A stretch of 38,852 nucleotides of DNA from the NCBI GenBank assembly GCA_004322275.1, contig SCTA01000024.1, positions 1-38,852 of the forward strand, written 5' to 3'. The notes under the pieces were generated by a model. That model saw only the letters and a program-made list of their open reading frames with translations. It was not told the origin of the DNA and did no database searches. This document shows, piece after piece, positions 4,956-32,607 of this stretch. The position numbers and the translations under genes were made by a program. Position 1 is the stretch's first letter. Each line of letters starts with the position of its first letter. Source of the DNA: a bacterium (GTDB lineage Bacteria > Desulfobacterota > Deferrisomatia > Deferrisomatales > BM512).

Positions 4956-6758
4956 TTAGCGCCTTCTTCTGGGGGGAGGCTTGGGCTTGGCTCTCTGCTG
5001 CTGCTCTTCTTCGGCGGCGGCTTCCTCTTCGTCAGCCTGAGAGTCGTCCGTGACCTCTTCGTCGCCGGTCTGGCCGTCTTCACCCGCGCCTGACACATCC
5101 TGTTCGGAGGCATTCCCCGTGGCCGCTCCGGCTTCGCCTTCGGCGGGCGGTGGCGGCGGCGGAGGGGCGAGGGCTTTTTTCAGAGCGTCGTGACAGCCGT
5201 TGCAGCCGCCCTTGAAGGTCGTCAGCCTTGCTTCGTCCGAAGCATGGGGATCGTGGCAGGATTTGCAGTTCAGCTCGCCCTTCTTGTCGAGCGGCATTCC
5301 GTCGATTTTCGCCGGCGGAGGGCCGCTGGTCGGATGAGAGTGGCGGGCCATCTTGTCCTGGGTGTGGCACTTGAAGCAGAGTTTCTCGCCCGACCCTACA
5401 AGGAAATATTCAGGGTTGTCCGAGGAGTGGGGATCGTGGCAGTTCGTGCACTGTTCCTGTGCGACCGGTTTATGCACGACGAACTTGCCTACCTTCTCCC
5501 TCATATCCTCGTGGCAGCTTATGCAAAGCGAGGCCTGCGAGGCCCTAAGCTGGAACTTGTAGGGCGCGCTGTGGGGATTGTGGCAAACCGCGCAAAGCCC
5601 CATTGCGACCGGCCCGTGGACGGTATCACGCTGAAACTTGGCTTTTACGTCGCCGTGGCAGGTGAAGCAAAGCTCGGACCCCTCGTCGGTAAGCGTGTAG
5701 CGGTGGGGTTTTGAATTGAAATCGTGACAGGCGGGGCAACCGCCCACCGGTATGGGACCGTGGACGAACTTTTCCTCTGTCTGGTAGCCGTGGCAGGTCT
5801 GGCAGGAGGTCGACATGCCCGCCTTGGCCTCCTCCGGGTTCGGCGCCATCTCATGGCAGCCGGCGCAGACTTTTTCCTTTTCCGGCATGTGGAGCTTGTA
5901 CTCGGGAAAGTTTACCCCCGAGCCCTCGCCCATTCGCGGGTCTCTGAAGAGCACCACAGCCTGGGTACCGGTTACATCCCCTTTAGGGTAGCTTACCTCA
6001 ATGAAATTCGAGCCGTAACAGAGCGGGATTCTGACCTGAAAGGAATCGCCGTTTATCTTCGCGGTCTTCGGCGAACCGCCGTTCAGCTTGACTGTAAAAG
6101 GCCCCTTGTTTCCGTTTGCGGACCCGACGACCCACATGTTTGACTGGTAGGTCATCGTGAAATTACTCGGCGAAAGAACCGCTATTTCCGAGCCCACCTT
6201 CGTTTCCGCCGCAGCGAGGGATTCACCCTTTATGACCTTGTCGATGATCGAATCCATCTTCGCCCGGTTTTCCTCATCGTAACCGACTATGGTGGACACG
6301 ATCTTGCCGTCTTTGTCGATTATGATGTAGGTGGGCAGGGTGATTACGTTGAACTGGTTTGCTATGGCGAGGCTTTTATCGAGCAGTATCGGAAAATTGA
6401 GGGCGCCGCTGAAGGCGGAAAAGAACTTCTTTACCCGGCCGATGCCGGAAGTGTCCAGGTTTACGCCGACGATTTTGACCTTTGAACCGTACTGCTCCTG
6501 GAGGACTATCAGGTGGGGTATGGATTGAACGCAGGTCGAACAGTAAATGGAGCCGAAATCGAGTACGATGGGGACCTTGCCGAGGTAGGGATCGAGGGAG
6601 AACTCGTCGTTGGTGTAAGTCCACCCCTTGAAAGACTCGATTTTTGCGCCGGTATCGGCTGCGGCGCAGGAGGTTGCGGCGCAAAAGAACAAAGCCAGAA
6701 CCAAAGCGGCTACGCCGGCGCGAAACCCCCCGCTACGGCTGCTCTTTCGGGGAAGCAT
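4956..6758 (-). CDS. Thioredoxin-like domain fused to decaheme c-type cytochrome
   Basis: A 600-residue exported protein. Residues 1-33 form a signal peptide, possibly of lipoprotein type (ATSC, Cys31). Residues 40-180 are a TlpA/ResA-type thioredoxin fold with redox motif C73-S-T-C76 and the cis-proline block LPTY (about 141-144). Residues 190-285 look like a beta-rich linker domain. From 298 to 523 there are ten CXXCH haem sites (Cys298, 319, 341, 364, 389, 412, 437, 461, 498, 519) arranged as five doubled-CXXCH units with extra His residues as likely second ligands. The end is unusual: polyproline (532-538), an acidic D/E/Q stretch, then [10 protein letters not shown]. The start is directly next to the TlpA gene stop. 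The protein may pass electrons between thiols and a haem wire; that is inference. Confidence 0.93.
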
Positions 6759-7331
6759 TTATTTTCCCAGAGTTTCTGTGATCGCCTTTTCCAGTTCTTC
6801 CTCGCCGACCCTGCCTACCCTGGAAAAAACTATCTTCCCTTCGGGGCTCACAATGTACAGCGTCGGCGTTCCGGGGATGAAGTAGGCATCCGAAACCACG
6901 AGCGAACCGTCTTCGTTTTCCTTGTCAAGAAGGAGGGTGAAGGTATAGCCCTTTTCCTTCGCGAACTGGGTTATGCTCTTGCCCATGTCGTCGCCGTCAA
7001 GGGCGACCGAAAGGACTCTGAGTCCCTTGTCCTTGTAGCGGTCGAAGAGGCTTTGGATAAGAGGCATCTCTTCGCGGCAGGGCTCGCAGAACAGCGACCA
7101 GAAAACGAGCAGCGACCCCTTGGAATCCTTTCCGGAGAAATGGAACGGCTTTCCGGCGGTATCCTTCACGTCGAAATCGGGAGCGTCCGCGCCCGGTTTC
7201 AGGGCCTCGACCCCCTGAAGCGTAGGGATGTCAAGTGGCGTCATCGCCTGGTCTGCGGCGGTGGCGATCATAGCCCCCGAAAAAAACATTACCGCTGCCA
7301 GAACCATGAATTTCATCTTCCGCATACCCAT
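6759..7331 (-). CDS. TlpA/ResA-family thiol-disulfide oxidoreductase
   Basis: A periplasmic thioredoxin-like protein of 190 residues. A hydrophobic signal sequence (about 6-26) precedes the AhpC/TSA-TlpA fold. The redox motif is C82-E-P-C85 in FWSLFCEPCREEMP, characteristic of ResA and CcmG proteins that reduce apocytochrome c haem-site cysteines. The cis-proline is in GTPTLYIV. Start choice among Met1, Met3 and Met6 is open; GGAGAGGAAG lies just before Met1. Its stop abuts the ATG of the thioredoxin-decaheme gene. The neighbourhood suggests it reduces that cytochrome's CXXCH cysteines or exchanges thiols with its thioredoxin domain. Confidence 0.9.
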   Translation of the reverse strand: MGMRKMKFMVLAAVMFFSGAMIATAADQAMTPLDIPTLQGVEALKPGADAPDFDVKDTAGKPFHFSGKDSKGSLLVFWSLFCEPCREEMPLIQSLFDRYKDKGLRVLSVALDGDDMGKSITQFAKEKGYTFTLLLDKENEDGSLVVSDAYFIPGTPTLYIVSPEGKIVFSRVGRVGEEELEKAITETLGK

Positions 7332-7402: not shown

Positions 7403-7431
7403 ATTATAATTTATTTGCGCTCGTAATACAA
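7403..7431 (-). promoter_or_regulatory. Internal promoter for tlpA-cytochrome-nudix
   Basis: On the minus strand TTGTAT (7431-7426), a 17-bp spacer and a perfect TATAAT (7408-7403) overlap the last codons of the NHL gene and point towards the TlpA gene, 72 bp downstream. The -10 box is perfect and the -35 box matches at three positions. It would let the redox genes be expressed apart from the barrel, lipoprotein and NHL genes. Confidence 0.5.
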
Positions 7432-8340
7432 AACGCGCTGTTTCCCCGCATCCGCCAGGAATATGTCCCTGTGGTCGTTTACTGCGACAGCCACGGGTTT
7501 TACGTTCGCTTCCGGTTTCACCTCCGTCTGCAGGGCGCCGTCGGCGTTCAGCGCAAGAACGGTGCCGGAGGCTGCGTCCAGCAGAAAAACCCACCCGAAA
7601 CGGCCGTCAACCCCAATGCCCGAGAGGCTGACCTTCCGTTCCACAACCTTTTCTACGTCCACGGACGCCTTCCAGTTACCGTCGAGATCGAATCGGCTTA
7701 TGACGCCGGAGCCCTCCTCCACCACCCAGACGGAACCGTCGTCAACCGGAGAAAACGCTATGGCTTTGGGCCTCTGGAAATGCCCCTTGAGGGAGACATC
7801 ACCCGGCGACCACTTGTCGAGATACTCGCCCCGGTTGGAAAAGATCTCTATCCTGCGGTTGCCGGAATCGACAACGTAAATCCTGCCGGTACCGGAGGCG
7901 GCCACGGAGCCGGGTGAACGGAAGTCCCCTTTCCCGAAGCCGTGGCTTCCCGGGGTCATCTGAATGGAGCCGTCTTTTTCAAGCACGACAAGCCTGTCGT
8001 TGCCTGTATCGGAGAGCCAGATTCTCTCCCGGCGGTCAAAGCAAAGCCAACGAGGGGTGTCGAATACCCTTCCCGAGCGGCCCTTCTCAGCGCCTATCGT
8101 CCTTTGCCAGCGCCCATCCTCGTCGAAGAGCACTACCGCGTTTCGCTTGTCGTCGGCTACCGCAAGTATGCCCTTTTCAGATATCGCCAGTCCGGCGGGG
8201 CTTTCCAGCTCGTTTCTGCCCTCGCCGTGCTCCCCGTAGACCTTCCTTAATTCATATACCGGCTTTGAGGCGGCGGATGCGCCGCCCGCCAGAAGTAGTA
8301 GTAGTATAAGTATAAACCACGTAGCCGCCCGTAGCGTCAC
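7411..8340 (-). CDS. Secreted NHL-repeat beta-propeller protein
   Basis: A 309-residue protein with a strong signal peptide (hydrophobic core about 8-20, cleavage near GGASAAS). The rest is NHL repeats: LESPAGLAISEKG, FDTPRWLCFDRRERIWLSDTGNDRLVVL, FRSPGSVAASGTGRIYVVDSGNRRIEIF, FQRPKAIAFSPVDDGSVWVVE and the closing VKPVAVAVNDHRDIFLADAGKQRVLYY. This gives a six-bladed propeller that probably acts as a scaffold or ligand-binding module in the periplasm or outside the cell. NHL proteins are commonly encoded beside multihaem cytochromes in Geobacter-like genomes. The GTG start lies 3 bp after the lipoprotein stop, so the two are probably coupled. Confidence 0.85.
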   Translation of the reverse strand: MTLRAATWFILILLLLLAGGASAASKPVYELRKVYGEHGEGRNELESPAGLAISEKGILAVADDKRNAVVLFDEDGRWQRTIGAEKGRSGRVFDTPRWLCFDRRERIWLSDTGNDRLVVLEKDGSIQMTPGSHGFGKGDFRSPGSVAASGTGRIYVVDSGNRRIEIFSNRGEYLDKWSPGDVSLKGHFQRPKAIAFSPVDDGSVWVVEEGSGVISRFDLDGNWKASVDVEKVVERKVSLSGIGVDGRFGWVFLLDAASGTVLALNADGALQTEVKPEANVKPVAVAVNDHRDIFLADAGKQRVLYYERK

Positions 8341-8343: not shown

Positions 8344-9081
8344 TTACTTGGGCTTGACCTTGAGCAGGATTTCCTCGGCGTTACCCTCGTCAGCTTCCTG
8401 GGTCTTTTCCGCTTCAATATCCTTGGCCTCTTCCGTGGCCATCTTGGTCTCTTCCTTCTGCTGCTCGAATATCTGTTCGAGTTCCAGTTCGCGGTTGTCG
8501 GTCAGGTGGACGGCCAGTTCGTCGGAGAGCTGAATGACTCCCCGCTGGGCAAGCTCGTTGACCGAGGGCCCCTCGCTGAGGCCGAAGACCTCGGCCACGG
8601 TGGTGTTTGAATGGATAAAGGCCCTCGACGACCATACGAGATCCCCGGTTTCGACGACCAGCATGTCGAGGAACATCGAGAATTCCACGCTGGTGGACTT
8701 CTCCTCTTCGCCGTTGAGCATGAGGCCGCCGCAAAGGACCGCGTCAACCTGAAGCTCTTCGCCGATCTTCCGGACTATTTCCCTGTCGAGGGATTCAGTG
8801 TTCCGGAGCTTGAGCTTCTTCATCAGGCCGGCCACGTAGCGCGGCTCCTCGATGCTTTCAAAGATCCCCTTGGAGAGGAGCTCCTGCACCAGCATCAACT
8901 CAGCGTGCTTTGGCCCGACGGCGCCCTCAGCCAGAGAGTCGAAAGGCAGTACGGCTACTCTCTTTATCCCGGTGTAAACCGGCTCGGGAGTAACGGGTTT
9001 TGAATAGGTCTGCACCTGCAACCCGGAACAGCCCGTAGCCAGCAGCGCAAGCACGATAAGCCCCGCCCACAAAGTCCGCAT
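8344..9081 (-). CDS. CsgG/LpoB-like outer-membrane lipoprotein
   Basis: A 245-residue lipoprotein. The start at 9081 is chosen because AGGAGG lies 8 bp upstream and it begins the signal sequence MRTLWAGLIVLALLATGCSG, with lipobox Cys at 18; an in-frame start at 9177 would bury the signal. Residues 40-190 (KRVAVLPFDSLAEG, then ELLSKGIFESIEEPRYV and LQVDAVLCGGLM) have the pattern of the CsgG/GNA1162/LpoB-type periplasmic domain. The C-terminus is a charged, coiled-coil-like tail rich in E, K and Q. It may stabilise or gate the adjacent beta-barrel protein; a true CsgG pore is uncertain because no clear transmembrane hairpins were seen. Confidence 0.75.
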   Translation of the reverse strand: MRTLWAGLIVLALLATGCSGLQVQTYSKPVTPEPVYTGIKRVAVLPFDSLAEGAVGPKHAELMLVQELLSKGIFESIEEPRYVAGLMKKLKLRNTESLDREIVRKIGEELQVDAVLCGGLMLNGEEEKSTSVEFSMFLDMLVVETGDLVWSSRAFIHSNTTVAEVFGLSEGPSVNELAQRGVIQLSDELAVHLTDNRELELEQIFEQQKEETKMATEEAKDIEAEKTQEADEGNAEEILLKVKPK

Positions 9082-9163
9082 ATTATGTTCCTCCTTATAT
9101 CCCGGAAACCCTCTCGAGTCGCAGGGGTCCGGCCTCCATATCAGGCAACAAAACAAGAGATTA

Positions 9164-11029
9164 TCAAAATTTGCCACTTACCTCAACAAGATAGCTTTCG
9201 GAATCGTTCTTTTCCCCCTCTATCTGCGTTTCAAATCCATATTCGAACTTGAATTTCAGGTGATCCCTGTAGATGGGAAAAGACAGTGAAACGTCATAGG
9301 ATTTCTTGTCCTCGGAGGTGGAGTTTCTTGTGTAGCCGTGATCGACGGCGAAATCGTAAATGCCGAGCGCTTTCCAGCCGTAAGACAGGTCAAGGGTATA
9401 CTCGAATTCGGGGGGGGCGTCGTCCTCGCTCTCGTCGGACGCCTTATGCCCGTACTCGGCCTTGGCTGTCATGTTCTTGAAAAAATCCTTCAACTCCAGC
9501 GCAAACTTCGTATCGTCCTCGCGCTTTATGAAGTTGACCTCTTCCTCGGGATAGGTGGCCGTTCTGGAGTATTTGTGGTCAACTGAAAACTTTGTAACGT
9601 CACCCAGTTCAATCGTATATTTGGCCGCTACTTCCCACTTGCTTTCTTTTCCGGAGTCGGCGCTGACCGTGTAGACGGGTTTCAGTTCCAGTCCGGGAAT
9701 GTCTTTAAGCTCGAGGTTGCCCTCGAAATCCCAGACGACATCCGTGTTGGTTCTATCGCCGTTTTCCCACTCGTAGGAGAAATTGCGCGTCGCCTTGAAT
9801 TTGATCTGGTCTTCCCAGACCTTCCACTCGCTCTCCAGCTTGTACTCGTCCTTGCGTTTTCTTATGCTGCTTTCGTCTTCCGGACTTTCGTGGTCGTAGG
9901 TCCAGTCGTAAGAAAAAAGCAGACTCACAATATCCAGGGGCTTGTAGGTCAGCTCGGCTCCGGCGCCCTGTGAGGTGGTGGTCGTATCCGCGTCGGTCCC
10001 CTCTTTGTTTTCCAGCGTGTAAACGTAGTCCGCCTTAACGTCGATGAATTCGCTGGGTTTTGGGCTTACCTTCACCTCCCCTTCCCACTTGCGGCTCACC
10101 TCGGTGGGCTCTTCGACCATGAAATCCTTGTCCCATTTATTTTCCTGGGTGACGGCGAAATCCACCCATTCGATGGTCTTGAACTCCAGCTTGGCCTTGG
10201 CCTCGTTGGTAAGCGTGTCGGACTTGTCGAGAAGGCGGTCGTCGCTGTCGAGGGTCAATCCCTGGTCGCGCTGATGCTTTGCCTCGGCGTCGAACTTCCA
10301 GGCGTCGCCCAGGTCGGTTTTGAATTTTGCGGTGGCCGCGAAGGAGCGGTCGTCGGTTTTGTCTTCTTCAGGACTGCGGGGAGTGGAGGTGTCTTTTTTG
10401 GCGTCAAGGCTAAATTCGACAAGGTCTTTGAGAAGTTTGTATTCAAAGGCGCCTTCGTAGGCCTTGTCGACGGTTTCGTCGCTGCGCTCGTAGGTGAAGG
10501 CGGCATCGGGAAGGATATCGTTTTTGGGCTCGGCCTTCGCCTCGAACTTGAGGGTGGTGTCGATCTCCGTGTCCGTTTCGGGGTCGTCGGATTCGGTGAT
10601 TGACTGCGACCATTCGCTCGCCGCTGACCACCAGGTGGCCTTCGCCTCTCCCTTGACGCTGTGATCGGTGGTCAGAGTGTCAAAATCCTCTTCCTTGTCC
10701 TCAAACGCCCGGCTCAGTTCATACCCGAGTTTTACATTAAAGTCGTAAGAGGTTTTGTGGTCGTAGCCGAAGGTGAACTTTCGGGTTTCCTTCTCGTCGA
10801 AGACAGACCCGCTCTCGTCCGCCTTCCTGTCGCCTTCTTTTGTGTAGGTGGCCTCGGCGGTGTATTCGGCGGCAAAAACCAGTCCGGGGGCAAAAAAGCA
10901 AAGGACGGCAACGGCGGCTGGCGCCATTAAACGGAAGGAAATGCACCCGCTTGGCCGTCCACAGTCAGGGACACCACCGGTTTTCACGCAAATTTGGCCG
11001 GAACCCGCCGAACGTGAAAAGATTTGCAA
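9164..11029 (-). CDS. Large outer-membrane beta-barrel protein
   Basis: A protein of up to 621 residues. After the signal (MAPAAVAVLCFFAPGLVFA, about 35-53) nearly the whole chain is alternating polar/hydrophobic strands such as KFTFGYDHKTSYDFNVKLGYEL and DHLKFKFEYGFETQ. These are separated by loops very rich in D, E, K and T, and the chain ends in the outer-membrane signature ...VEVSGKF. Length and strand density suggest more than 20 strands, comparable with MtrB/PioB or OmbB-type porins that sheathe multihaem cytochromes, though no family-specific motif was seen. The start is uncertain: TTG 11029 has an AAGGGA site, whereas ATG 10927 has no Shine-Dalgarno and gives a signal without a basic residue. 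Confidence 0.82.
   Translation of the reverse strand: MQIFSRSAGSGQICVKTGGVPDCGRPSGCISFRLMAPAAVAVLCFFAPGLVFAAEYTAEATYTKEGDRKADESGSVFDEKETRKFTFGYDHKTSYDFNVKLGYELSRAFEDKEEDFDTLTTDHSVKGEAKATWWSAASEWSQSITESDDPETDTEIDTTLKFEAKAEPKNDILPDAAFTYERSDETVDKAYEGAFEYKLLKDLVEFSLDAKKDTSTPRSPEEDKTDDRSFAATAKFKTDLGDAWKFDAEAKHQRDQGLTLDSDDRLLDKSDTLTNEAKAKLEFKTIEWVDFAVTQENKWDKDFMVEEPTEVSRKWEGEVKVSPKPSEFIDVKADYVYTLENKEGTDADTTTTSQGAGAELTYKPLDIVSLLFSYDWTYDHESPEDESSIRKRKDEYKLESEWKVWEDQIKFKATRNFSYEWENGDRTNTDVVWDFEGNLELKDIPGLELKPVYTVSADSGKESKWEVAAKYTIELGDVTKFSVDHKYSRTATYPEEEVNFIKREDDTKFALELKDFFKNMTAKAEYGHKASDESEDDAPPEFEYTLDLSYGWKALGIYDFAVDHGYTRNSTSEDKKSYDVSLSFPIYRDHLKFKFEYGFETQIEGEKNDSESYLVEVSGKF
10985..11023 (-). promoter_or_regulatory. 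Structured segment at the 5' end of the barrel gene
   Basis: On the minus strand GCAAAT and TTTTCACG are followed about 24 nt later by ATTTGC and CGTGAAAA. GCAAAT can pair with ATTTGC, and TTTTCACG with CGTGAAAA, but the two helices cross, so they are mutually exclusive or form a pseudoknot. The segment lies between the candidate TTG (11029) and ATG (10927) starts. It may be leader RNA if the ATG is used; this is speculative. Confidence 0.3.
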
Positions 11030-13298: not shown

Positions 13299-13325
13299 GT
13301 GAAGGACGTGAAGGACGTGAAGGAC
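13299..13325 (+). repeat. Three tandem 9-bp repeats at the start codon
   Basis: GTGAAGGAC occurs three times in a row, encoding V/M-K-D, so there are three in-frame GTG codons spaced 9 bp apart. Only the first has AAGGAG at an ideal distance (7 bp). Gain or loss of a unit would keep the frame and move the other GTGs relative to the ribosome-binding site. Confidence 0.8.
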
Positions 13326-15104
13326 AAAAAGCGCATACATACTTCGCTGAACCTCGAAATGGCGTTGGCGGCCTGCTTTGAGAAAAATCTTCTGACCGAG
13401 AAGCAGGCGCGCTACATCTTCGAGAGATCGAAAATCCAGCGCGCGAAGATAGCCGCCCAGAGTTCGGAGGTCGAGGCGGACGATCCCGCGACTCTCATTC
13501 ATTCCTTTGAGTTCTCCCCGCCCTTTCGCGAAAACGAGCCTCTGGAACCGACTGAAATAGTCGAGGCTATCGCCGAAAAGCTAAGCGTCCCCACGATACA
13601 CATAGACCCCCTCAAGCTCGACAGCGAGGCGATAGTCAAATCCCTTCCCAGGGCGTTCGCTTTCAAGCACGCCTCCCTCGTACTCGATCCGAAAATAGAC
13701 CCGGCTCCCGTCGCCATGGCCAATCCGACGGATTTCGAGGCCCTGCACATAATAAGGGCCCGGCTCGGGAAAAGGGTGCGCATCTTCATGGCCCCCGCGG
13801 GCGAGATTCTTCATCTCATACGCGAGATTTACGGCTTCAAGACCTCGGTTGCCGCAGCGGAAAAGGATCTCTCGCAGCTTCCGGACATCCAGAACCTGGA
13901 GCAGTTCTTTTCGATGCGTTCGGAATCGGACGTGGACGTCAGCGACAGCCACATCGTCCGCGCCGTGGACCATCTGCTCCGCTACGCCTTCGACCAGCGA
14001 GCCAGCGACATACACATCGAACCCAAAAGGGAGCAGTGCGTCGTGCGGCTCCGCATAGACGGCGTCCTCCACACCGTACATACCTTTTCCAGAAGGGTTC
14101 ACTCGGGGATAGTTTCGAGGATAAAAACCCTCGCCCGGATGGACATAGCCGAAAAGCGCCTCCCGCAGGACGGCAGGATAAAGGCCCAACACGGACAGAC
14201 CTCCGTGGAACTTCGCGTCTCCACCCTTCCGGTGGCTTTCGGGGAGAAAGCCGTGCTGAGGATTTTCGATCCGATCCTTCTGGACAAGGATCTCTCGGAA
14301 CTCGGCCTCGCCGGGAGGGAGCTCGAACTCGTCGAAGGGTTTCTCGCGAGGCCCCACGGGATATTTCTGGTCACCGGCCCCACCGGCTCCGGCAAAACGA
14401 CAACCCTTTACACCGCCCTGAAAAAGATATCGACGGAGGCTTACAACGTCTCCACCGTCGAAGACCCTATAGAAAACATCTGCCCTGAATTCAACCAGGT
14501 AGGGGTGCAAAGCCACATAGGCCTCTCCTTCGCCAATGCGCTGCGGACCCTCCTTCGGCAGGACCCGGACATTATAATGGTCGGCGAGATACGCGACGCC
14601 GAAACCGCGAAGATGGCGATTCAGGCCGCCCTCACCGGCCATCTGGTCCTCTCGACCCTCCACACCAACGACGCTCCGGGGGCGATAAACAGGCTTCTGG
14701 ACATGGAGGTGGAGCCCTTTTTGCTTTCCTCCACCCTCCTTGGGGTGATGGCTCAAAGACTTGTGCGTACCCCTTGCAACAATTGCGCAGTAAATAGATT
14801 GATCGATCCCGACGAGGCCAGGCTGCTGTGCCTCCCTGGGGACACGCAGATTCTCGCCGGCGAGGGGTGCCCCCGGTGCAGGCGCACGGGATACCTCGGA
14901 AGGACAGGCATCTTTGAGATACTGGGGGTTTCGAGGGCGGTGGCGGACGCCATCCACCTGCGGGCCTCCACACAGGAGATTGAGGCGATCGGCCGTTCGG
15001 AGGGGATGCTTACGCTAATGGAAGCGGGAGTGGGAAAAGTGCTTTCGGGGATGACCACTCCCTCGGAGGTGCTGCGCCAGGCCTATATGGGAGAAAGCTC
15101 ATAA
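13299..15104 (+). CDS. GspE/PilB-family pilus or secretion assembly ATPase
   Basis: A hexameric cytoplasmic ATPase that powers pilin polymerisation or type II secretion. The 601 residues include a T2SSE-type N-terminal domain (about 80-190) and a complete motor: N2 region SDIHIEPK, Walker A GPTGSGKTTT (about 359-368), Asp box VSTVEDPIE, Walker B DPDIIMVGEIRD (about 422), His box TGHLVLSTLHTND (about 446), and the zinc-binding CNNC...CPRC pair (about 493-527) typical of PilB/GspE and absent from PilT. The GTG start follows AAGGAG. Minor pilins follow on the same strand, so a type IV pilus PilB role is favoured over GspE. No pilC, pilT, pilD or major pilin gene is in view. Confidence 0.93.
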   Translation: MKDVKDVKDKKRIHTSLNLEMALAACFEKNLLTEKQARYIFERSKIQRAKIAAQSSEVEADDPATLIHSFEFSPPFRENEPLEPTEIVEAIAEKLSVPTIHIDPLKLDSEAIVKSLPRAFAFKHASLVLDPKIDPAPVAMANPTDFEALHIIRARLGKRVRIFMAPAGEILHLIREIYGFKTSVAAAEKDLSQLPDIQNLEQFFSMRSESDVDVSDSHIVRAVDHLLRYAFDQRASDIHIEPKREQCVVRLRIDGVLHTVHTFSRRVHSGIVSRIKTLARMDIAEKRLPQDGRIKAQHGQTSVELRVSTLPVAFGEKAVLRIFDPILLDKDLSELGLAGRELELVEGFLARPHGIFLVTGPTGSGKTTTLYTALKKISTEAYNVSTVEDPIENICPEFNQVGVQSHIGLSFANALRTLLRQDPDIIMVGEIRDAETAKMAIQAALTGHLVLSTLHTNDAPGAINRLLDMEVEPFLLSSTLLGVMAQRLVRTPCNNCAVNRLIDPDEARLLCLPGDTQILAGEGCPRCRRTGYLGRTGIFEILGVSRAVADAIHLRASTQEIEAIGRSEGMLTLMEAGVGKVLSGMTTPSEVLRQAYMGESS

Positions 15105-15106
15105 AC

Positions 15107-15122
15107 TGGCATTATTCGCGCT
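15107..15122 (+). promoter_or_regulatory. Candidate sigma-54 promoter before the minor pilins
   Basis: TGGCAT followed by a GC dinucleotide exactly 10 bp after the GG satisfies the invariant spacing of -24/-12 promoters; the -12 part (GCGCT) is only a partial match. It begins 3 bp after the ATPase stop and about 110 bp before the first prepilin. Sigma-54 control of pilin genes is known in Pseudomonas and Geobacter. Confidence 0.3.
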
Positions 15123-15229
15123 TTTGTAATACATTACAGGATTAAGACGGTGCGTTTTGACCGGGCGTTTATAAAACACGATGACGTATCTTAACGGGCA
15201 GGCGCTGATTCAACAGCGGACGGCCGGGG

Positions 15230-15841
15230 ATGAACATGAGAGCCAGCGGGAACAGACAAGGGGGCTTTAGCCTCGTTGAACTTATGGTGACGGTAGCAAT
15301 TATCGCCGTCATCGGGGTCATCGCGGTCCCGGCCCTCAATCTTTACATACCGAAGTACCGCGTAGACAACGCCTCCAAGGTCGTCGCCTCGGAAATGCAG
15401 CTGGCGCGAATGCGGGCGATATCGAAAAATCTGCCCCAGATCGTCACCGTCGATACCGTCGCGCAAACCGTCGTCCTCGCCCAGATAAACGCCGACGACT
15501 CCCTTACCACCATAAACACCCTCTCTTTCGAGGGAAGCTCCGGCGTGCCGACCTTCGCTGGAGTCTCCATCGGAAGGATATCGGGTACGGGGGTTCCCGC
15601 CGACGCCCCCGTCTCGGAAGAGAGCGCCGCGGCGGCCTTCGGGGTGCCGGGGGGCTCGGAGGTCTATCCCTCCATAACCTTTCTGCAAAACGGCCTCAGC
15701 AACCGGAGCGGGCAAATCTATCTGATTCCCTCCGGGGACCTGACGAACTCGCGTTCCGACAGGACAAAAGCGGTCCAGGTCCTTCGGGCCGGAATGGTCC
15801 GCCGGTTCAAATACGACGGCTCGGTCTGGAAGGAGTACTGA
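15230..15841 (+). CDS. GspH/FimT-type minor prepilin
   Basis: A 203-residue prepilin. The cleavage site and stem helix are clear: GG|FSLVELMVTVAIIAVIGVIAVPAL, with the conserved Glu at mature position 5. The leader is 12 residues from Met1, or 10 if translation begins at Met3. The C-terminal beta-rich head (for example SGQIYLIPSGDLTNSR, AVQVLRAGMVRRFKYDG) matches the GspH/FimT family (the 'U' minor pilin). It would join the tip complex that primes pilus assembly after processing by PilD and insertion in the inner membrane. Its TGA overlaps the ATG of the next pilin gene by one base, so the two are translationally coupled. Confidence 0.9.
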   Translation: MNMRASGNRQGGFSLVELMVTVAIIAVIGVIAVPALNLYIPKYRVDNASKVVASEMQLARMRAISKNLPQIVTVDTVAQTVVLAQINADDSLTTINTLSFEGSSGVPTFAGVSIGRISGTGVPADAPVSEESAAAAFGVPGGSEVYPSITFLQNGLSNRSGQIYLIPSGDLTNSRSDRTKAVQVLRAGMVRRFKYDGSVWKEY

Positions 15842-16479
15842 TGGGACGCAAGGGCTTCACCCTCATCGAAGTTCTGGTGACGATGGTCATCCTTGCGATA
15901 GGCCTTTTAGCCATCGTCCAGATGACTCTCGTCTACGTCAACGCAAACACCTTCAACAACATGCTGAGCCAGGCCACGGTAATAGGGCAGGAGAAGATGG
16001 AGCATCTCACCTCCTACGCCCGCAGCGACCGGGCCGACACCTATTCGACTCTCGATTTCGATTACCTGATCTCCGCCAGCGGTAATTTCACCTCCCTGCG
16101 GGACGTTTCGGGCGGCTCTCCCGCCAGTTTCATAGTACACGGCCTCCTTTCCGGCGACAACGGCGGCGTCCCCGTCACCGCCCCCTGGGACGCGAACCTC
16201 GTCTTCCCGGTCCTCTACGACGACGGCGCCCACGACGACGTGGACGACGGCGACGGGATATACGGCCTGAAAGAGGTCATAGACGTTCCGGGCATGGGCG
16301 GCGCAGCGGCATTCCAGGTCGAAAGAATCCAGCGGGTACAGCCGATAAATCTTGAGCCGGATCCGAACCTGCCTCCCAGATTCGATCTTGCCAGAATCAC
16401 CGTGATCACATCCTGGACGGACAGGTACGGCAAAAAAAGAGACGTGACCCTGGACACCGTCGTCCACAGGAGGCAATAG
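15841..16479 (+). CDS. PilV-type minor prepilin
   Basis: A 212-residue type IV minor pilin. A very short leader (MGRKG) is followed by FTLIEVLVTMVILAIGLLAIVQMTLVYVN, with Glu5 present; the VILAIGLLAI signature is typical of PilV/GspI. The head contains an Asp-rich stretch, DDGAHDDVDDGDGIYG (about 128-143), which resembles a calcium-binding loop; metal binding is inferred. It ends in a strand-rich segment (RITVITSWTDRYGKKRDVTLDTVV) as expected for the family. It overlaps the upstream GspH/FimT gene and is followed 2 bp later by the PilX gene, so all belong to one operon. Confidence 0.88.
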   Translation: MGRKGFTLIEVLVTMVILAIGLLAIVQMTLVYVNANTFNNMLSQATVIGQEKMEHLTSYARSDRADTYSTLDFDYLISASGNFTSLRDVSGGSPASFIVHGLLSGDNGGVPVTAPWDANLVFPVLYDDGAHDDVDDGDGIYGLKEVIDVPGMGGAAAFQVERIQRVQPINLEPDPNLPPRFDLARITVITSWTDRYGKKRDVTLDTVVHRRQ

Positions 16480-16481
16480 CG

Positions 16482-18479
16482 ATGCGGCTCTCTGACAAGC
16501 GTGGAATAGTCCTCGTTACGGGGCTCCTGATACTGGCGATACTCTCCCTGCTGGGGGCGGGCTCGATTCTCAGCTCCACCATGGACACCAGCACCGTCGG
16601 CAACCAGAAGAGCGGCAAACAGGCTTTCTACGCCGCCGAGGCGGCGCGCAACGCGGCTATCCTCCAGATAATGGATTCCTACAACTCCACGGGGAACTTC
16701 ATCCCCCCCGATCCGGCCGACCCGCCGGTGGACGTAACCACGGGCGCTCACGGCTTCGACGGCTCGAATTTCAACGGCTACGCCCTCACCTACCGCGTCT
16801 CCTGGACGCCCCAGCCCGTGGGCATCGATCAGACCGCCAACGTCTCCTTTCCCACCAATGAAAACGGGATGGTGATGGACAACATGGCGCGCCAGTATGA
16901 GATCGAGGCTTTCGCGACGGGCGTCAACACTACCGACAGCGCGACGGTTCGCGAGACGATACGGGTGCTCACCCGCCCGCTGACCCAGTACCTCGCCTTT
17001 TACGAAGGCCACATGAACTGGCGTCCGCAGGCGGCGGCGCAGCTTACGGTGAACGGCGGCAGGGTGCATGCGAACGGCAGAATCTACCTCGCCCCCCAAA
17101 ACGGCATCCTCTTCGGCTTCGATCAAAACAGGGGCTCAAACGCCCTCACGGCCACGGGTTCGGTCGAATATCACATGGCCATACAGCAGGACAACTCCGA
17201 CTCCGCCGCGGGCGGAGGCACCCTCGAAATCACCGTCCCCGTCATTGGCGAAAAAGCAATCGCCCAGTCCATAACCCGCCTGAACAGGGGCCAGTACGAA
17301 AACGAATTCATGGTGGAAACCGATTCCGCCCTCCGGGTGGGCGTGGACAGATTGAGAGCGCCGGGAAGCGGGATTCTGGACCGGGGTGGAATCTTTGAAC
17401 TTCGGGCAGATAAAGACGCCTCGGTCCCTGCGGACCCCCTCGTCGATACCTTCCAGATAAACGACGACGGCGGGGCGCTCAACGTACTCTTCAGCGTCAA
17501 CGGCTCCGTTCCCGTGTCGTTCGCGAACGAGGTGGAGGGTTACCTCGATTCGACGGGGGCGCTTATGGCCCTCAACACCTGGGACGAGGCGAGGGTAAAC
17601 CCCGACGAATCCGGCATCGACGCGAACTTCGTCGCGAGGACGATAATCTACTCCAAGGAGCACCAGCCCCTTGAGGACCACACCCTGCCAATTCATGTTA
17701 CGTATCTGGATGACGCCGGGATCCTGATGAACAAGGACTACCCGACGATCCTCGAAGCCAACGACCCCCGGGAAACAAAACCGGTGGAGTTCATCGTAAT
17801 CGACCTCCAGCGCCTCCAGCACTGGTACGAGGACTACCTCGTCAGCATGGGGCTCAATCTCACCGGCAGATCCCTCCTCATCTATGCGGCAAAAACGCCC
17901 AACGCCTTTTCCATATCGGCGATAAAGATTATCGGCTCCCAAGGGGGAAGGGTCCGCACCGACACCGCCGATATTCAGGGCAACGCCACCCTCAAGGTTC
18001 CAACGATTATAGCCACCCCCAACCCGGTCTACGTCGAGGGCGACTTCAACTCGGTCGGCAGCCAGCCCTGCGTGATAGTCGCCGACGCCGTAACCTTCAT
18101 CTCCAACTCGTGGGGAGAACTCCATTATCCCCCGGCCGTAGCGGGCGTAACCAACGCCTCGCAGACAAGGTACAACGCCGCAATAATCGCCGGGCGCTAC
18201 GATTACATGACCGGCGGGTCGGCCACCGAAGCGGAGGGTGTGGAAGACCTCCCGAGGAAGATCGAGAACTGGGCGGGAATCGACCTCACCTTCACCGGTT
18301 CGCTCGCGAGCCCCTGGTTCAGCGAAATCGCGGATTTCCCCTTCAATCCGGCCATGGTCACCTCGCCTAACTACATAATCACCTACGACACCAGTCTGAA
18401 AACGTTGCCGGGCATGGGAATAGGTCCTTACGTTCCCTCCATCCATACGGTCGAAAGAGAGTCCTGGCGTGAAGAATAA
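16482..18479 (+). CDS. PilX-type pilus assembly protein
   Basis: A 665-residue protein with a PilX N-terminal domain: KRGIVLVTGLLILAILSLLGAGSILSS followed by STVGNQKSGKQAFYAAEAARN, the family signature. As in other PilX/GspK-like proteins the segment lacks a standard G|F-x3-E site. The protein is several times longer than Pseudomonas PilX. The extra region includes beta-helix-like strands (VNGGRVHANGRIYLAP; NPVYVEGDFNSVG), which recur in similar form in the giant PilW protein next door. It probably caps or matures the pilus tip together with the neighbouring minor pilins. The ATG is 2 bp after the PilV stop, preceded by AGGAGG within the PilV 3' end. Confidence 0.85.
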   Translation: MRLSDKRGIVLVTGLLILAILSLLGAGSILSSTMDTSTVGNQKSGKQAFYAAEAARNAAILQIMDSYNSTGNFIPPDPADPPVDVTTGAHGFDGSNFNGYALTYRVSWTPQPVGIDQTANVSFPTNENGMVMDNMARQYEIEAFATGVNTTDSATVRETIRVLTRPLTQYLAFYEGHMNWRPQAAAQLTVNGGRVHANGRIYLAPQNGILFGFDQNRGSNALTATGSVEYHMAIQQDNSDSAAGGGTLEITVPVIGEKAIAQSITRLNRGQYENEFMVETDSALRVGVDRLRAPGSGILDRGGIFELRADKDASVPADPLVDTFQINDDGGALNVLFSVNGSVPVSFANEVEGYLDSTGALMALNTWDEARVNPDESGIDANFVARTIIYSKEHQPLEDHTLPIHVTYLDDAGILMNKDYPTILEANDPRETKPVEFIVIDLQRLQHWYEDYLVSMGLNLTGRSLLIYAAKTPNAFSISAIKIIGSQGGRVRTDTADIQGNATLKVPTIIATPNPVYVEGDFNSVGSQPCVIVADAVTFISNSWGELHYPPAVAGVTNASQTRYNAAIIAGRYDYMTGGSATEAEGVEDLPRKIENWAGIDLTFTGSLASPWFSEIADFPFNPAMVTSPNYIITYDTSLKTLPGMGIGPYVPSIHTVERESWREE

Positions 18480-18566
18480 ACGTCACGAAGCCGAAAACAC
18501 ACGGTCCCGCACCTCGGGAGAGAACTTTTGCGCCCCTTTGAATGCCGGGCGCGCCGGAGCAGCGCC
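18480..18566. other. Short spacer between pilX and the giant pilin gene
   Basis: 87 bp with no terminator. It ends in CGGAG, 6 bp before the chosen ATG, which supports that start and continued operon transcription. Confidence 0.4.
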
Positions 18567-21500
18567 ATGAATACAAAAAGACGCAACCGCAAGGATCTTG
18601 GCTTTACGCAGGTCGAGCTGCTGCTTGCACTCGGCATAGGGATAATCCTTCTCGGACTCGCGGTCTTTCCCTTCTTTCTCTCCCAGATAAAGAGCTACAC
18701 GGTGCAGGACGAGACCGCCAAGATGCAGCAGCGCGCCCGTACCGCGCAGGATTTTATCGTCAGGTCGGTGCAGCAGGCGGGCGCTTTCGCCCTCACCGGC
18801 AGCGGCCCCATGTCCATACGGGGAAGACCGATACTGGGCGCGGGCGACAGGTTCATAGCCGTCCAGTACGACGACCCGGAATCAAACACCCCCGGCAGGA
18901 TAAGCGCCGACGAGGTGGTGATGTTCGCCCTGAGCAAGCCCGGCGGGACCACTACCGAAACGATCACCGTCGTTGATGCGAGCTTCGACCGGGACAACGA
19001 CGGGACCGTGGAAGAATCCGAGGAATTCAACTGGGAGGTGCCCCTCGCTCTCGGGGGCCCCCCCTACAACCTTTACCGGATCACCCCCGACCCCTCGGAC
19101 CCCACCGGCGACCCGATAATGGAGCTTGTGGCAACCAACGTAGACAACCTGATCTTCAAGTACTACGACGGTGACGGCAGGCGCATACCCTCCGAAAGCG
19201 ACGGCGAGCCGAGCCCGATGCCCTACGATCTCGACACCGAGGGCGAAAGGATCGGGGTCAAGACCGTAGAGGTGGAACTTGTCCTCGCCTCCGAAAAGCC
19301 CGACGACAAATACAGCCAGGATTTCGCGCTGGAGGACAATTCGGTGGGCACCTACACCACCGACGGAACGCCCCGCACCGGCTTCGTGCTGAGCAACCAG
19401 ACCGCCTACGTCGCGAGCGGAGCCCTGCCCAACCAGTTCCGGCGCAGAAACTACACCACGATCACCAGCATCCGCAACATAACCGCGACCGAATGCGGCA
19501 CCATAGAGTTATCGGCCAGCCCCGAGTCCCCGCGCTGCCCGGACCCGACCGTCGTCACCGCCACGGTGCTCAACGGCGAGGGAAACCCGGTCGCCGACGG
19601 CACCCCGGTAAACTTCACGATGCTCACCCCGGGCCCGGCCCTCACCCCGGCCTCTGCTACGACCGTAGGCGGTATTGCCACTACCACGATGAGCTATACC
19701 GGCGCCAAGAGTCCTTTCACCGTCGAGGCAGTGGCGATGATCGCCTGCGGTGACCCCCCTGAACTTCGCACGTCTAAAACGATAAACTTCGTAGAGGGCG
19801 ATCCCGTACAGGCAAAGATCACTCAAACCGGCTATACCATCGCCGACATGGCCGACCAGCCCGCTCCGCCGGACGCGAGTTTCGTCACCTGCCGCGACGA
19901 TTTCTTCGTCTTCAGCATCCTTGCCTACGACCAGTGCGACAACGTGGTCGACCCCACCGCGCCTCTTACCTTCCGCACCGTCGCCGGCACCGACGAACCG
20001 CTCGGAACCATCTCCGACAGCGACAATGTCGCGGGCGGCTGGGGCGCGCCGGGGGACACGGCAAGTTTTCAGGTTGGCAAAAACGCCTTCAGGATCGACC
20101 GCCCCACGGGAGCTATCGCCGCCACCGCCCCGACAGCCACCCCCACCGACGTCGCCACCGGAAGGTACGACATACTGGTCAGGGCGCAGGACGTGCTCCC
20201 CGCCTGGATTACGCAGGGGTTCTGGTTCATCAATCCCCTCACCGGGATAGAGGAAACGATCACGGGGCCTCCCTACAATGTCTTCACCATTCCACTTTTT
20301 CCGTGGCCGCCGGCGGATTTTACTATTATTTCGGATCCGGACAATCCGGACACCTCGAAAATAGTAAGCAACCTTGGAGTGAACTTCGCCACGCTCGATT
20401 GCAACACCGTACCGATTCCCGATTTCATAGCTCCGAATTACAGCGATCCCGAATACGACTACGTGGACACATTAGTCGTCACCGACTGCAAGGGCAACAG
20501 AGTTGCCAACATGAACTCGGTTGGAGGCTACTCCATCGATGCCTTCTTCACTCACACAACCGGGGTGCTCGGCCCGGAATCAATCGGGGGTCTCGGGAAA
20601 CCGCCGGTACCAGACCCTCCGAACCCCGTTACGAACCTGATAAATCTGGAGTCCGCCTACGCTAACTCCGAATACAAGGTTTTTTTCGCTAAAAATGGCT
20701 GCACCATCGATCCGGACCTTTACGCCGATTCAAATCCATATGTCGATTTCACCTTAAGATCCAATAACTTCGTCAATGACTCAGGTCCCGTAACCGTCAC
20801 GAAAACTTATCAAATAAATATGCGGCCCTGCAGAACCTGCGGGCTCACAACCGCGGCCGACATTGTGACCACCTGCGAGGGCTATGCCGACGTAACTGTT
20901 GGCGGTTGCGATTTCGTCAACAAGGATGTCCTTCTGACGATCGACGAGGTTCCGCTGCTGCCGGCTGCGGGCCAGCCCTATTGGGTTGACCGGGTAACCC
21001 ACCTGCCCCTCAACGGAATAAAATCCAGAGAAGCAACGGTGGTTACCGGCCCCGACGGCACGGTCACGGCCAAACTCTCCATAGGGGACGCCGCATCCCT
21101 CACTACCCTTACCGTCAGGGCAGGCTCCACCAGCGCCGAGGTTCCCCCCTGGTCCTGCCAGAACGAAGCCACAATAACCGTCAGCAACGAATGCATGGAT
21201 TTTCGCGCCTTCTACAAGACCGACATAGGCATTCAGGACATAGTCAACGGCGGCTCTTACTGCGCCCAGCAGCTCTCCACCCTCTTTTTCCAGATAGAGC
21301 ATTGCAGGCACGAGGGAGGCATCTTCCCCAATCCGGTGACTGTCATCATCAGGGACCAGTTCGGGCAGGATTTCGACATAGAGGATATAGATCTCATCGG
21401 CCTCGTCAGCACCGTCGACCCTGTAACCCCGCCCTACCGCTTCTTTGAAGGGGAGATCAAGGTCTTCCCCAACCCCTCGGCGCAGGGCAATCATCATAAC

Positions 21501-24500
21501 CTCAAGCTGGAGTACCCGCAGAACAAGGGATCCTCCATGATCATCAGGCCGTGGGTAAACGTCAACGACCCCTCCGACTCCTGCCCGGACAGCGGAGACT
21601 GGTCAACCACGCTGATACCCCCCCTGCCGCTCTGCTTCCCCAACGCCATCACCTCCGGCGGCGGCGCTTCGTGGAACGGCAACTTCAAGGTCCACTGGGG
21701 CGACGTCGTCGTTCGCGGGCAGGTCACGGTTCCGACGGCCAACAAGAGAATAGCCAAGAGCGCCGCGGGACAGTATGACGGCAACCCCTTCGGCGGCACC
21801 GGCAATTCCGACCGCCTCTTCGACCTCTACGTAGGCAAGGCGGGCACCACCAGCCTCGACGACGGTCTAATTCAGGGGCTGCAGCCGCCCGCCGGCCATA
21901 CCGGCGTCTATCAGCCCTTCAAGAACGACGTGCCCATCGGTTACGGCCACTACTTCACGAACATCTCCAGCTCGCGCATAAACGAGATGGTGGTTCTCCT
22001 GAACTACGATCTGATGCGCGGACTGGCGATGACCCACTCCAACAACTCCTACTGGTGCGCCATACCCACCACGCCGGGGTCGCTCTACAACCCGAGGAGA
22101 AAGGTTTCAACCACCTTCGCCGCCCTTATGCAGTACCCGAACGCGAACAACAACGGCGACTTCCTCTTTCTCGATTCCTGGTGCCAGGCCGGACCGGGCG
22201 GAGCAGGACCCTTGTGGATATCCGACACCGCCCTCACCGACGCCATAATAAACGCCACCCCGATGACCAAGCCCGCGGGCAAGACGATACTGGACGCCCT
22301 CCCCCGCTGGACGGCCTCGGGCAGCTTCTTCACCAAGGGCATAACCTACATCGCGGGCTCTCTCGAATTCGGCGGCCTCGGCGCGACCACCCCGGTAACT
22401 GTCAAGGCGCCTCCGAACAAGGATCTTCGCTACGACCACAACACGGCGGTATTCGACGAGAGCGAACTGCCGATACGTCCCGACCCGACGGCGGCCCGCT
22501 CAAGCTTCACCCTCGGCGTCCACGTCAACGGCGCTATCTACGTAGACGGTGAGTTCGCCGGAAACGGCAACCCCTCGGTCTTCGGCGCTATTAATTCGGA
22601 GCGCGGCTACAGCGGCAGCGGCTCGCCGGAGCTCTGGTACAACTACGCGCTCAACCAGTCTACAAGCGACGGCAACTCGCTGTGCGTCGATTGCTGCAAG
22701 ATCAATGCGACTCCGAGGGCGATCGACATGTCTCCCGGAGATACTACCTCCATCGACGTAAGGGATTTCACCGAACCTCTCATCTTCCAGACCTCCGACC
22801 CCGACATAGCCACGGTGACCGCCGGCGGCGTGGTCACCGCGGTCGCCCAGGGAACCACCTCCATATGGATCGTAGACAAGAACAACTGCTCCATAATGAT
22901 CCCCGTGCGGGTATCCACCCAGTGCGTGGGTCTGGCCCTTCGCCCCGACACCGTACCGGAAAATCCCGCCGTGCCCTTTGAACTCGTAGCGGGCGTCGAA
23001 CCCACTGCCTACCTGCAGGTGGTAGACGCGGGCGGCGAAACCTATCCCTTCGCGGCCTGGGCCTGGAGCGCGACTCCGAACGCGGTCGGTGAGACGGTGG
23101 TGGAAGTAAGCCCCGTCGCCTCCGGCGCCTACTCGGCCTGGATAACCGGCAAGAAGTGCGGTACCTCGGTCGTCACCGCAAGAGACACCCTTGAATACTG
23201 CACCGGCATCTACGAGTCCTTCGTAACGGTGTCCTCGGCCCTCGACATCTCGACGATAACGCCCCTCAAGGACGAGTACGAGGTCGGCGAAACGGTCACC
23301 CTCACCGCGACGGGCGGTTCCGGCACCCTCACCTGGCACGCCTCTCCCGCGGGAGCGGTGGAGTTCAACTCCTCCTTCGGCGCGACGGTAACCGCTACCT
23401 TCAAGCAGCCCGCAAGCCCGCTGCTCATCGATGTCTCGGACAGCCTGGACTGCGTCTCGGCTGGCAAGAATTTCTTCGTCAGGTGCCCGACCCCGACTCT
23501 CGTGACCGATTTCCCCTTCGACGGAAGCGAATGGGGCCTCGATTCTACTAACGGAAGGAACCTCTACTGGAAGATCACTCCGAGCGACGACCACCTCGTC
23601 GATCCGCTCGTTCCCTCGACAATGACCGACCAGCTGAACAAGGTCAATTTCACCATCACTCCCCCGGCCGGCGTCGTCTGGCCTCCCTATCCCCTCAACG
23701 CGGCGCCCAGAGACGAGTTCACGACCGAGTTCTGCGGCCTCGCGGGCGGAGACGTCTGCAGCAGCAACCCGACGGACATCTCATCCTGGAAGAGTGGCGA
23801 ATACACCTTTACGGGTACAGGCACGGCGACCTACACCGAGCCGCTGGTGATAGCCGCCTGCGGAGCGACGCGCAACGCATCGACCTCGATCAAGGTCAAC
23901 ATCGACAACTGCTTCCTCGATTACACCGACTACTTCACCTCGCTCACCCCTGAGTGGAGCCTTAACTGCCTGGACAACGGCTGCAACGCGGGATTGAGCT
24001 ACAGAAACATAATCAGCGGCGACTTACTCGCCGTCACCGCGGTAAACAACAACGCTTCGACGGGACCGGCGGTTCTCACCGTGGACAACGCCCTGTACCA
24101 CACGACCACCTCCAGCACCTTCGTGATCGAGGCGAGGATATCCGGCCTGACCGACACGGATCCCACTCCCGGCCTGATCTCGGGAGCCGGACTTGTAATG
24201 ACCACCGACAAGACCAAAGAGAAGGTGAACTCGGTGACCTTCGCCGGTTACGCGGACCCCAATGCGGCCTGGGACACCCCGCATAACCTGATAATGTATT
24301 ACTTCAACGGCGCATCGATGTCGGCTTTCAACACCGGCGTGATGCTTACGCCGCCCTACGACCTCCGTATCGAGAAAACGACCACCGGCGGTTACTTCGT
24401 ATTCAAGTACAAAAATTCCTCGGCTACGAACTGGACTACGGCGGTAACTTTGTCTTACGGCGCATACCCCGTCGGGGCTAACTTCTACTCCGGCCTCTTC

Positions 24501-30267: not shown

Positions 30268-31608
30268 ATGACGCTCTTCAAAGAAGACAATAAATTGAAT
30301 AAAAGAAAGTCCGCGCCGCTGGCCGAAAGAATGCGCCCCGAAACGATCGACGAAATCGTGGGGCAGGAGGAGGTTATCGGTGCCGATACCCCGCTCCGAA
30401 GGGCCATCGCCTCGGGCTCCCTCCCCTCGATTCTCTTCTGGGGGCCTCCCGGCAGCGGCAAGACCAGCCTCGCCCGGCTGATGGCCTCGGCGGCGGGGTA
30501 CCACTTCATCCCCCTCTCGGCGGTAAGCGCCGGGGTGAAAGAAGTGCGCGACGTGGTCGTAGAGGCGGGAAAGCTCGCGGAGGAGGGCAAGAAGACCCTC
30601 TTCTTTCTCGACGAGATACACCGCTTCAACAAGGCGCAGCAGGACGCTCTCCTCCCCCACGTTGAGGCCGGAACAATTACCCTCGTCGGCGCGACCACCG
30701 AAAACCCCGCCTTTCAGGTCAATTCAGCCCTCCTCTCGCGCCTTCTGGTTCTCCGCCTCGAACCACTGTGCGAAACGGACCTGCGGAAGATAGTAGAGCG
30801 GGCGGTAGAGGACGGTGAAAGGGGACTCGCGGGTTTGAAGGTTTCCCTGCCGGAAGAGGCTCTGGAAATGCTTTTGCGCTACTCCATAGGCGACGCGCGA
30901 AGGGCGCTGAACCTCCTCGAAGCGGCCGCCTTCGCCACCTCTCCCGGCGAGGACGGCGCACGGACGATAACCGCAGGAACGATGTCCAAGACCCTCCAGT
31001 CGCCCACCCTCTACTACGACACCGACGGCGACTGGCACTACGACATAATCAGCGCCTTCATAAAGACGATGCGCGGCTCCGACCCCGACGCGGCGCTCTA
31101 CTGGCTCGCGAGGATGGTCGAGGCGGGGGAGGATCACCTCTTCATAGCCCGCCGCATGGTCATCTTCGCCTCCGAAGACATCGGCAACGCCGACCCCGAG
31201 GCGCTCCGCGTCGCGCTGGCCGTCAAGGACGCCGTCCACTTCGTCGGGATGCCGGAGGGGTGGATACCGCTGGCGCAGGGCGTCGTCTACCTCGCCACCG
31301 CCCCCAAGTCCAACGCCTCCTACTTGGGCTACAAGGCCGCCAAGGGTGACGTCGAGCGGTACGGCAACGTGCCCGTGCCGCTCCACCTTCGCAACGCCCC
31401 CACCAAGCTCGCCAAACAGATGGGATGCGGAGAAGGCTACCTCTACCCCCACGACGACCCCGACGCCGTCGTCCCCCAGACCTACTTCCCCGACGCCGTC
31501 GGCAAAAAGAACTACTACCGCCCCAAAGGATTCGGCTTCGAGAAAACCATCGCGCAGAGGCTGGAGTGGTGGGAGAAAAAGCGGAAGGAAAAGGGGGGAA
31601 ACAGATGA
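30268..31608 (+). CDS. rarA: Replication-associated recombination protein A (RarA/MgsA AAA ATPase)
   Basis: An AAA+ ATPase that acts at stalled replication forks and is related to clamp-loader subunits. The 446-residue length from ATG 30268 is normal; longer in-frame starts would run antisense through nadK. Motifs in order are MRPETIDEIVGQEE, Walker A GPPGSGKT (59-66), Walker B TLFFLDEIHRFNKAQQDALLP, sensor 1 LVGATTENPAF and sensor 2 GDARRALNLLE. The C-terminal MgsA tetramerisation part includes ASEDIGNADPEAL and YLGYKAAKGDV. No strong Shine-Dalgarno precedes the start. Its TGA overlaps the ATG of the small TPR-like gene, the first gene of the AT-rich island. Confidence 0.95.
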   Translation: MTLFKEDNKLNKRKSAPLAERMRPETIDEIVGQEEVIGADTPLRRAIASGSLPSILFWGPPGSGKTSLARLMASAAGYHFIPLSAVSAGVKEVRDVVVEAGKLAEEGKKTLFFLDEIHRFNKAQQDALLPHVEAGTITLVGATTENPAFQVNSALLSRLLVLRLEPLCETDLRKIVERAVEDGERGLAGLKVSLPEEALEMLLRYSIGDARRALNLLEAAAFATSPGEDGARTITAGTMSKTLQSPTLYYDTDGDWHYDIISAFIKTMRGSDPDAALYWLARMVEAGEDHLFIARRMVIFASEDIGNADPEALRVALAVKDAVHFVGMPEGWIPLAQGVVYLATAPKSNASYLGYKAAKGDVERYGNVPVPLHLRNAPTKLAKQMGCGEGYLYPHDDPDAVVPQTYFPDAVGKKNYYRPKGFGFEKTIAQRLEWWEKKRKEKGGNR

Positions 31609-32042: not shown

Positions 32043-32104
32043 TATATTGGCAAAAATGAATTGGCTGCACGGTAATGCACCCTCGAAAAAGGCGGGTTAG
32101 CCGA

Positions 32105-32266: not shown

Positions 32267-32272
32267 AAGAAC

Positions 32273-32578: not shown

Positions 32579-32607
32579 CTACCTGGCTGAGAAGGAGGGT
32601 TAGCGAA

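Follow-up and report, generated by a model that had tools for sequence, protein, structure and literature searches.

A conserved thioredoxin–Ig–decahaem fusion protein in an MtrAB-like gene cluster of Deferrisomatales, and its possible role as the thiol port of an outer-membrane haem conduit

When a thioredoxin-type dithiol and a string of haems are encoded on one polypeptide, the question arises whether the two also exchange electrons within it. The original prediction for the 38,852-nucleotide stretch of DNA analysed here (contig SCTA01000024.1, referred to as the window) placed a TlpA/ResA-like domain with an intact CSTC pair in one chain with ten CXXCH sites, and Pfam matches, Foldseek comparison and motif counting all bear this out; it was silent on the minus strand, the Ig-like domain and the five-gene operon described below. 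The fusion ORF (its product referred to as P0001) occupies window positions 4956–6758 on the minus strand and encodes 600 amino acids, the plus-strand frame over the same positions being interrupted by stops. P0001 starts with a Sec-type signal, seen in its sequence, and is thus predicted to be exported; the signal is followed by the thioredoxin domain (residues 38–178), the Ig-like domain (residues ~190–272), ten CxxCH motifs (residues 298–523) and a Pro/Glu-rich tail:

4956–6758, minus strand: thioredoxin–Ig–decahaem fusion protein P0001, 600 aa (ORF, Pfam, orthologues)
6225–6647, minus strand: TlpA/ResA-like thioredoxin domain, residues 38–178 (Pfam Redoxin/AhpC-TSA/Thioredoxin_8, AlphaFold, Foldseek match to ResA)
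6531–6542, minus strand: CSTC redox motif (Cys73, Cys76) inside an FGSIYCSTC block (CxxC in 25/26 fused proteins)
5943–6191, minus strand: Ig-like beta-sandwich spacer domain, residues ~190–272 (AlphaFold model, weak Glucodextran_B match)
5190–5891, minus strand: decahaem domain, residues 290–523, with ten CxxCH plus nine other His that are invariant (alignment, MtrA profile match)
4956–5180, minus strand: Pro/Glu-rich C-terminal tail (alignment), which is far shorter in most relatives

Together with the ORF and strand data, a mean of 0.03 CxxCH motifs in shuffled sequence (vs. ten in P0001) rules out chance or a misread frame as the source of the fusion, and an assembly artefact is ruled out by the occurrence of the fusion in a single frame in independent genomes.

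Residues 37–171 of P0001 were matched by the Pfam families Redoxin (4.7e-17), AhpC-TSA and Thioredoxin_8, while the AlphaFold model (pLDDT mostly 76–95 across residues 40–180) matched ResA/DsbE-type thioredoxins in Foldseek with target TM scores of 0.83–0.91. A peroxiredoxin reading of the Redoxin and AhpC-TSA matches was rejected, as the PxxxTxxC motif is absent (C–7 is Leu66 and C–3 is Ser70); CxxC and a cis-proline point to a thioredoxin. As in ResA, TlpA and CcmG, a thioredoxin fold, an export signal, a CxxC at the helix start and an invariant cis-proline (Pro142, in 26/26 fused proteins) are found together, but in the fused head CS[ST]C takes the place of CEPC, position C–4 is Gly where these proteins have Trp, and a decahaem chain is attached. 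Scores against the family models for ResA (69 bits, cut-off 170) and TlpA (26 bits, cut-off 230) both stayed below the cut-off.

Loss of the CxxC pair in most relatives, which the original prediction had named as speaking against it, was not seen: CxxC and the FGSIYC block are retained in 25 of the 26 fused proteins, at an overall identity as low as 35%. Moreover, residue 69 (C–4), which corresponds to Trp28 of E. coli thioredoxin, is Gly in exactly those 25. Among unfused relatives with an intact CxxC this position is Trp in all except L074, which is itself a fused protein broken in two by a frameshift. Because the fused proteins form one clade, the Trp-to-Gly replacement was probably a single change that has since been retained, rather than many independent ones.

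The Ig-like domain that follows has seven strands in the AlphaFold model and sits between the thioredoxin domain and the haems, with Glucodextran_B matching weakly over it in 11 of 19 relatives. The original prediction had also counted a long flexible linker against itself; the two halves of P0001 are separated by a domain rather than by a floppy linker, in a model whose haem part reaches a pLDDT of only 28–74 and contains no haems, too little to yield a distance from CSTC to a haem.

The CxxCH motifs start at residues 298, 319, 341, 364, 389, 412, 437, 461, 498 and 519, i.e., at spacings of 21–25 residues with one gap of 37, and residues 362–507 were matched by Paired_CXXCH_1 (5.2e-42) and by cytochrome c3/c7 families. 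The five doubled units in which these sites had been described are an acceptable reading of a repeat that is nearly even at ~23 residues. All ten motifs are invariant across a 19-member alignment (a plain motif count gives nine for L073, in which the aligned Cys and His are nevertheless present). Since nine further His residues (290, 333, 381, 396, 429, 444, 473, 475 and 505) are likewise invariant in this alignment, nine haems are probably bis-His ligated. The candidate tenth ligand, His352 (window 5703–5705), is Lys, Asn or Arg in several orthologues, and because of this variability the ligand site of one haem may be unusual, different or open. In profile comparison the best solved relative of the haem half was MtrA (6r2q_A, E 1.8e-19; this chain is labelled cystathionine beta-synthase in the PDB copy used, the entry title being that of the Mtr complex), and its score against the DmsE-family model was 79 bits (cut-off 192). 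By these profiles, the haem half is a relative of MtrA and not a member of the DmsE/MtrA family.

A homologue search for the same domain order, as the original prediction had advised, recovered the full-length fusion from 12/12 sampled genomes of the order and, by profile search, from 19/395 genomes of the phylum. Further copies were found in records labelled Deferrisomatales, other Deltaproteobacteria, a Rokubacterium and others. The pattern scan of contigs included part of the CxxC motif and was hence biased to intact copies; the phylum profile search, which is free of that bias, yielded a single cysteine-free full-length match, i.e., the L056 paralogue discussed below. A maximum-likelihood tree built on the haem half placed the fused proteins in one group, apart from those without a thioredoxin domain (support 90/92; two of the 28 rows in this group are members that are frameshifted or lie at a contig edge), and their separation from the Nitrospirota proteins had a support of 100/99. 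A search of a plasmid collection gave no match, and no description of a thioredoxin–multihaem fusion was found in the open-access literature, to which the search was confined. We conclude that the fusion is genuine and conserved, that it has no description within the reach of this search, and that it represents a variant of a porin–cytochrome type system.

The genetic context of the fusion is a tightly packed five-gene cluster on the minus strand, encoding in order a barrel, an LpoB-like lipoprotein, an NHL propeller, TlpA and, as the last gene, the fusion:

9164–11029, minus strand: outer-membrane beta-barrel, likely start near 10927 (AlphaFold model, fold match)
8344–9177, minus strand: LpoB-like lipoprotein with lipobox ATGC, likely start near 9081 (TIGR02722 at 3.3e-7, under the model's cut-off; conserved)
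7411–8340, minus strand: exported NHL beta-propeller protein (Pfam NHL 1.3e-15; conserved)
6759–7331, minus strand: separate exported TlpA-family thioredoxin with a CEPC motif at 7077–7088 (Pfam, ResA-like, conserved upstream position), its TAA stop codon immediately adjoining the ATG of the fusion

Distant members of the cluster add a SurA-like isomerase and a HAMP-type sensor (both named by sequence inspection only). The AlphaFold model of the barrel has 30 predicted strands (pLDDT 83.8, pTM 0.54) and a C-terminal Phe. MtrB (6r2q_B) came first in both structure comparisons, at a Z of 17.6 and an rmsd of 12.3 that tie it with unrelated TonB-type barrels. Pfam MtrB_PioB (PF11854) matched neither this barrel nor anything else in the whole genome, and a Pfam scan of ten barrels returned generic porins only. 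The cluster is therefore MtrAB-like in organisation, without being a member. As in MtrAB, PioAB and MtoAB, an MtrA-related ten-haem chain shares a cluster with a barrel gene, the top fold match of that barrel is MtrB and, as in PioA, the haem chain carries a long N-terminal extension. In contrast to these systems, the barrel lies outside MtrB_PioB and is predicted to have 30 rather than 26 strands, the extension is an intact thioredoxin domain plus an Ig-like domain, an extra TlpA partner is present, and the cluster contains no surface MtrC-type cytochrome.

The TlpA gene lies directly upstream in 24 of the 25 fusion relatives, mostly 0–30 bases apart or overlapping. The sole relative without it (L056:8979-10550, genome G037) is also the sole one without CxxC, which is replaced by STNG on a long branch that keeps all ten CxxCH; its surroundings contain no TlpA, NHL, LpoB or barrel gene, a 12-haem cytochrome gene adjoins, and a CxxC copy of the fusion coexists in its genome. 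In addition, Ig-decahaem proteins of ~400 aa that begin at the Ig domain were found by profile search in 5/296 Nitrospirota genomes. Their five operons (L206–L210) encode a barrel, an LpoB-like protein, NHL and Ig-decahaem, and no thioredoxin of any kind (the barrel was matched by profile in L206 alone and assigned by position and length in the others). Since these operons persist without both thioredoxins, gene content indicates that TlpA and the fused domain are a joint addition to, or a joint loss from, a barrel–decahaem core.

The same two types also occur as free thioredoxins (WSIYCxxC and WSxFCGPC) that stand side by side elsewhere in the host genome (G000) and in several others, and because of these free pairs the idea that the two types are redox partners is supported. 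One such pair in G000 (L175:5076-6306, contig C8; WSIYCVSC and WSIFCGPC) has no haem part and has conserved counterparts in G037 and several genomes of the order. Another contig of G000 carries a free Ig-decahaem protein without a thioredoxin domain (L180:4659-5816, contig C1).

These variants bear on redox control of cytochrome maturation, which had been offered as one purpose of the fusion. In its most concrete form, the thioredoxin head, fed by TlpA, would act in cis to keep the twenty haem cysteines of its own chain reduced until haem attachment, as ResA/CcsX and CcmG do in trans, with no electron transfer thereafter. Both thioredoxins are nearest to ResA-type proteins, the genome encodes ResB-type (System II) cytochrome assembly and CcdA, and, apart from the thioredoxin pairs, it is chiefly the haem cysteines that are conserved in the module. 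There is also a precedent in PioA, an MtrA homologue of which the ~200-aa N-terminal extension controls haem attachment and is later removed, but that extension has no recognised domain (PMC6831781). Against such a role, the Nitrospirota orthologues that lack both thioredoxins retain all ten haem motifs, as does L056 without its CxxC (though the CxxC-bearing copy that coexists with it might assist in trans), and the free Ig-decahaem protein of the host genome has no thioredoxin domain at all. Maturation in cis is the main rival reading, weakened by these proteins, and we consider it rather unlikely.

Leaving aside the lipobox Cys of the lipoprotein, cysteines are conserved in the module only within CEPC, within CSTC and at the haem sites; the mature barrel and the NHL protein have no conserved cysteine. 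The thiols would either serve the haem cysteines, i.e., in maturation, or exchange electrons with the haems. A regulatory role was also weighed, in which the disulfide state of CSTC, set by TlpA, would alter how the decahaem chain docks to the barrel or periplasmic donors, thereby gating the conduit, with no electrons passing between dithiol and haem. We regard such a switch as improbable: the obligate TlpA pairing, the altered active-site surroundings (Trp to Gly) and the Ig-like spacer would all fit, but the conserved cysteines offered no partner for a regulatory disulfide, and a whole thioredoxin domain with its cis-proline is not obviously needed for it.

The reading that we favour, at somewhat below an even chance, is that TlpA and CSTC form the thiol port of an outer-membrane haem conduit. 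The beta-barrel and the MtrA-related decahaem chain, with the LpoB-like and NHL proteins as accessories, would build this conduit, which in the fusion lineage would have gained a port of two thioredoxins, TlpA as a free protein with its CEPC and the CSTC domain joined to the haems via the Ig-like domain. TlpA would swap disulfides with CSTC, the CSTC dithiol would exchange electrons with the nearest haem, and periplasmic thiol equivalents would exit through the haem wire or enter from it. Exit is judged the likelier direction because the dithiols of ResA-type proteins are low in redox potential, so that flow from thiol to haem should be the easier.

The electron exchange originally proposed is supported in part. 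A functional link between the dithiol couple and the haem chain is well supported indirectly, by the conserved CxxC, the retained Trp-to-Gly change, the obligate TlpA pairing and the existence of a counterpart without both thioredoxins. What the data establish directly are the sequences, the conservation of the cluster and of CxxC, and the fact that the two thioredoxins are present or absent together. We infer that the haem chain assembles with the barrel, that TlpA and CSTC exchange thiols, and that electrons pass directly between dithiol and haem, as well as the direction in which they pass. That envelope disulfide chemistry is coupled directly to extracellular electron exchange via the decahaem wire, discharging into it or being charged by it, is a possibility that we hold tentatively. 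Counting for the thiol port are the MtrA match of the haem half combined with MtrB as top fold match of the barrel, the free pair of the same thioredoxin types, and a host genome with many multihaem cytochromes. Counting against it are the Ig-like domain, which stands between CSTC and the haems and may hold them apart, and a barrel that falls outside MtrB_PioB and resembles unrelated barrels as much as MtrB. Furthermore, since a dithiol donates electrons in pairs and a haem accepts them singly, direct transfer would need a radical step or two nearby haems.

Electrons might also run the opposite way, from the haem wire to a CSTC that reduces disulfide, polysulfide or S0 as terminal acceptor. 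Cultured Deferrisoma reduce both sulfur and iron, and their sulfur reduction would suit such a reductase. The multihaem outer-membrane cytochromes of the Shewanella Mtr system support the reduction of extracellular disulfides (PMC10986466), which makes haem–disulfide exchange at the cell surface chemically reasonable. A sulfur-species reductase nevertheless leaves the obligate TlpA partner unexplained and has to contend with a fused head that presumably faces the periplasm, and we consider it very improbable.

Among published systems, the Uet (undecahaem electron transfer) pathway of Tenderiales and Gallionella comes nearest in composition, with barrel UetC, NHL proteins UetHI, the doubled-CxxCH multihaem protein UetJ and peptidyl-prolyl isomerase UetB (PMC10734462), the likeness being drawn from the published description. 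Both have a barrel and NHL, and an isomerase (SurA-like) occurs only in some distant members of the cluster described here. The latter differs in having ten haems rather than eleven or twelve and no separate surface tetrahaem or trihaem genes, and the published description of Uet mentions no thioredoxin (PMC10734462). A further parallel is found in Geobacteraceae and Nitrospirota clusters (L084, L087, L093, L099–L101, L104, L113 and others) that encode a 13-haem cytochrome, a cysteine-free thioredoxin–TPR protein and often an Ig-octahaem protein. These also set an Ig-type multihaem protein beside a thioredoxin-fold protein, but there the cysteines of the thioredoxin fold are gone, and its fusion partner is a set of TPR repeats instead of haems. 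In G000 itself, L177:4887-10176 (contig C15) contains genes for ResB and a CcsA-like protein, then a 13-haem cytochrome, then a 337-aa protein resembling a cysteine-free thioredoxin fold. Elsewhere in the window, positions 13299–24572 hold a type IV pilus-type run (a PilB-like ATPase and GspH-, PilV- and PilX-like pseudopilins) that leads up to a pilin-headed protein of 2014 aa, and two related TPR-like proteins stand in tandem at 31425–33042, at the start of a low-GC patch (0.48 vs. about 0.60).

Finally, the fusion bears on how anaerobic metal reducers balance their periplasmic thiols and on whether dithiols can feed a multihaem wire. Since dithiol and haems lie within one polypeptide, exchange between them becomes testable there, and a ready comparison exists among versions of this operon that have the thioredoxin pair, versions that lack it, and a paralogue whose head is dead. 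Direct exchange between dithiol and haem, if true, would connect two-electron with one-electron chemistry in an unusual way.
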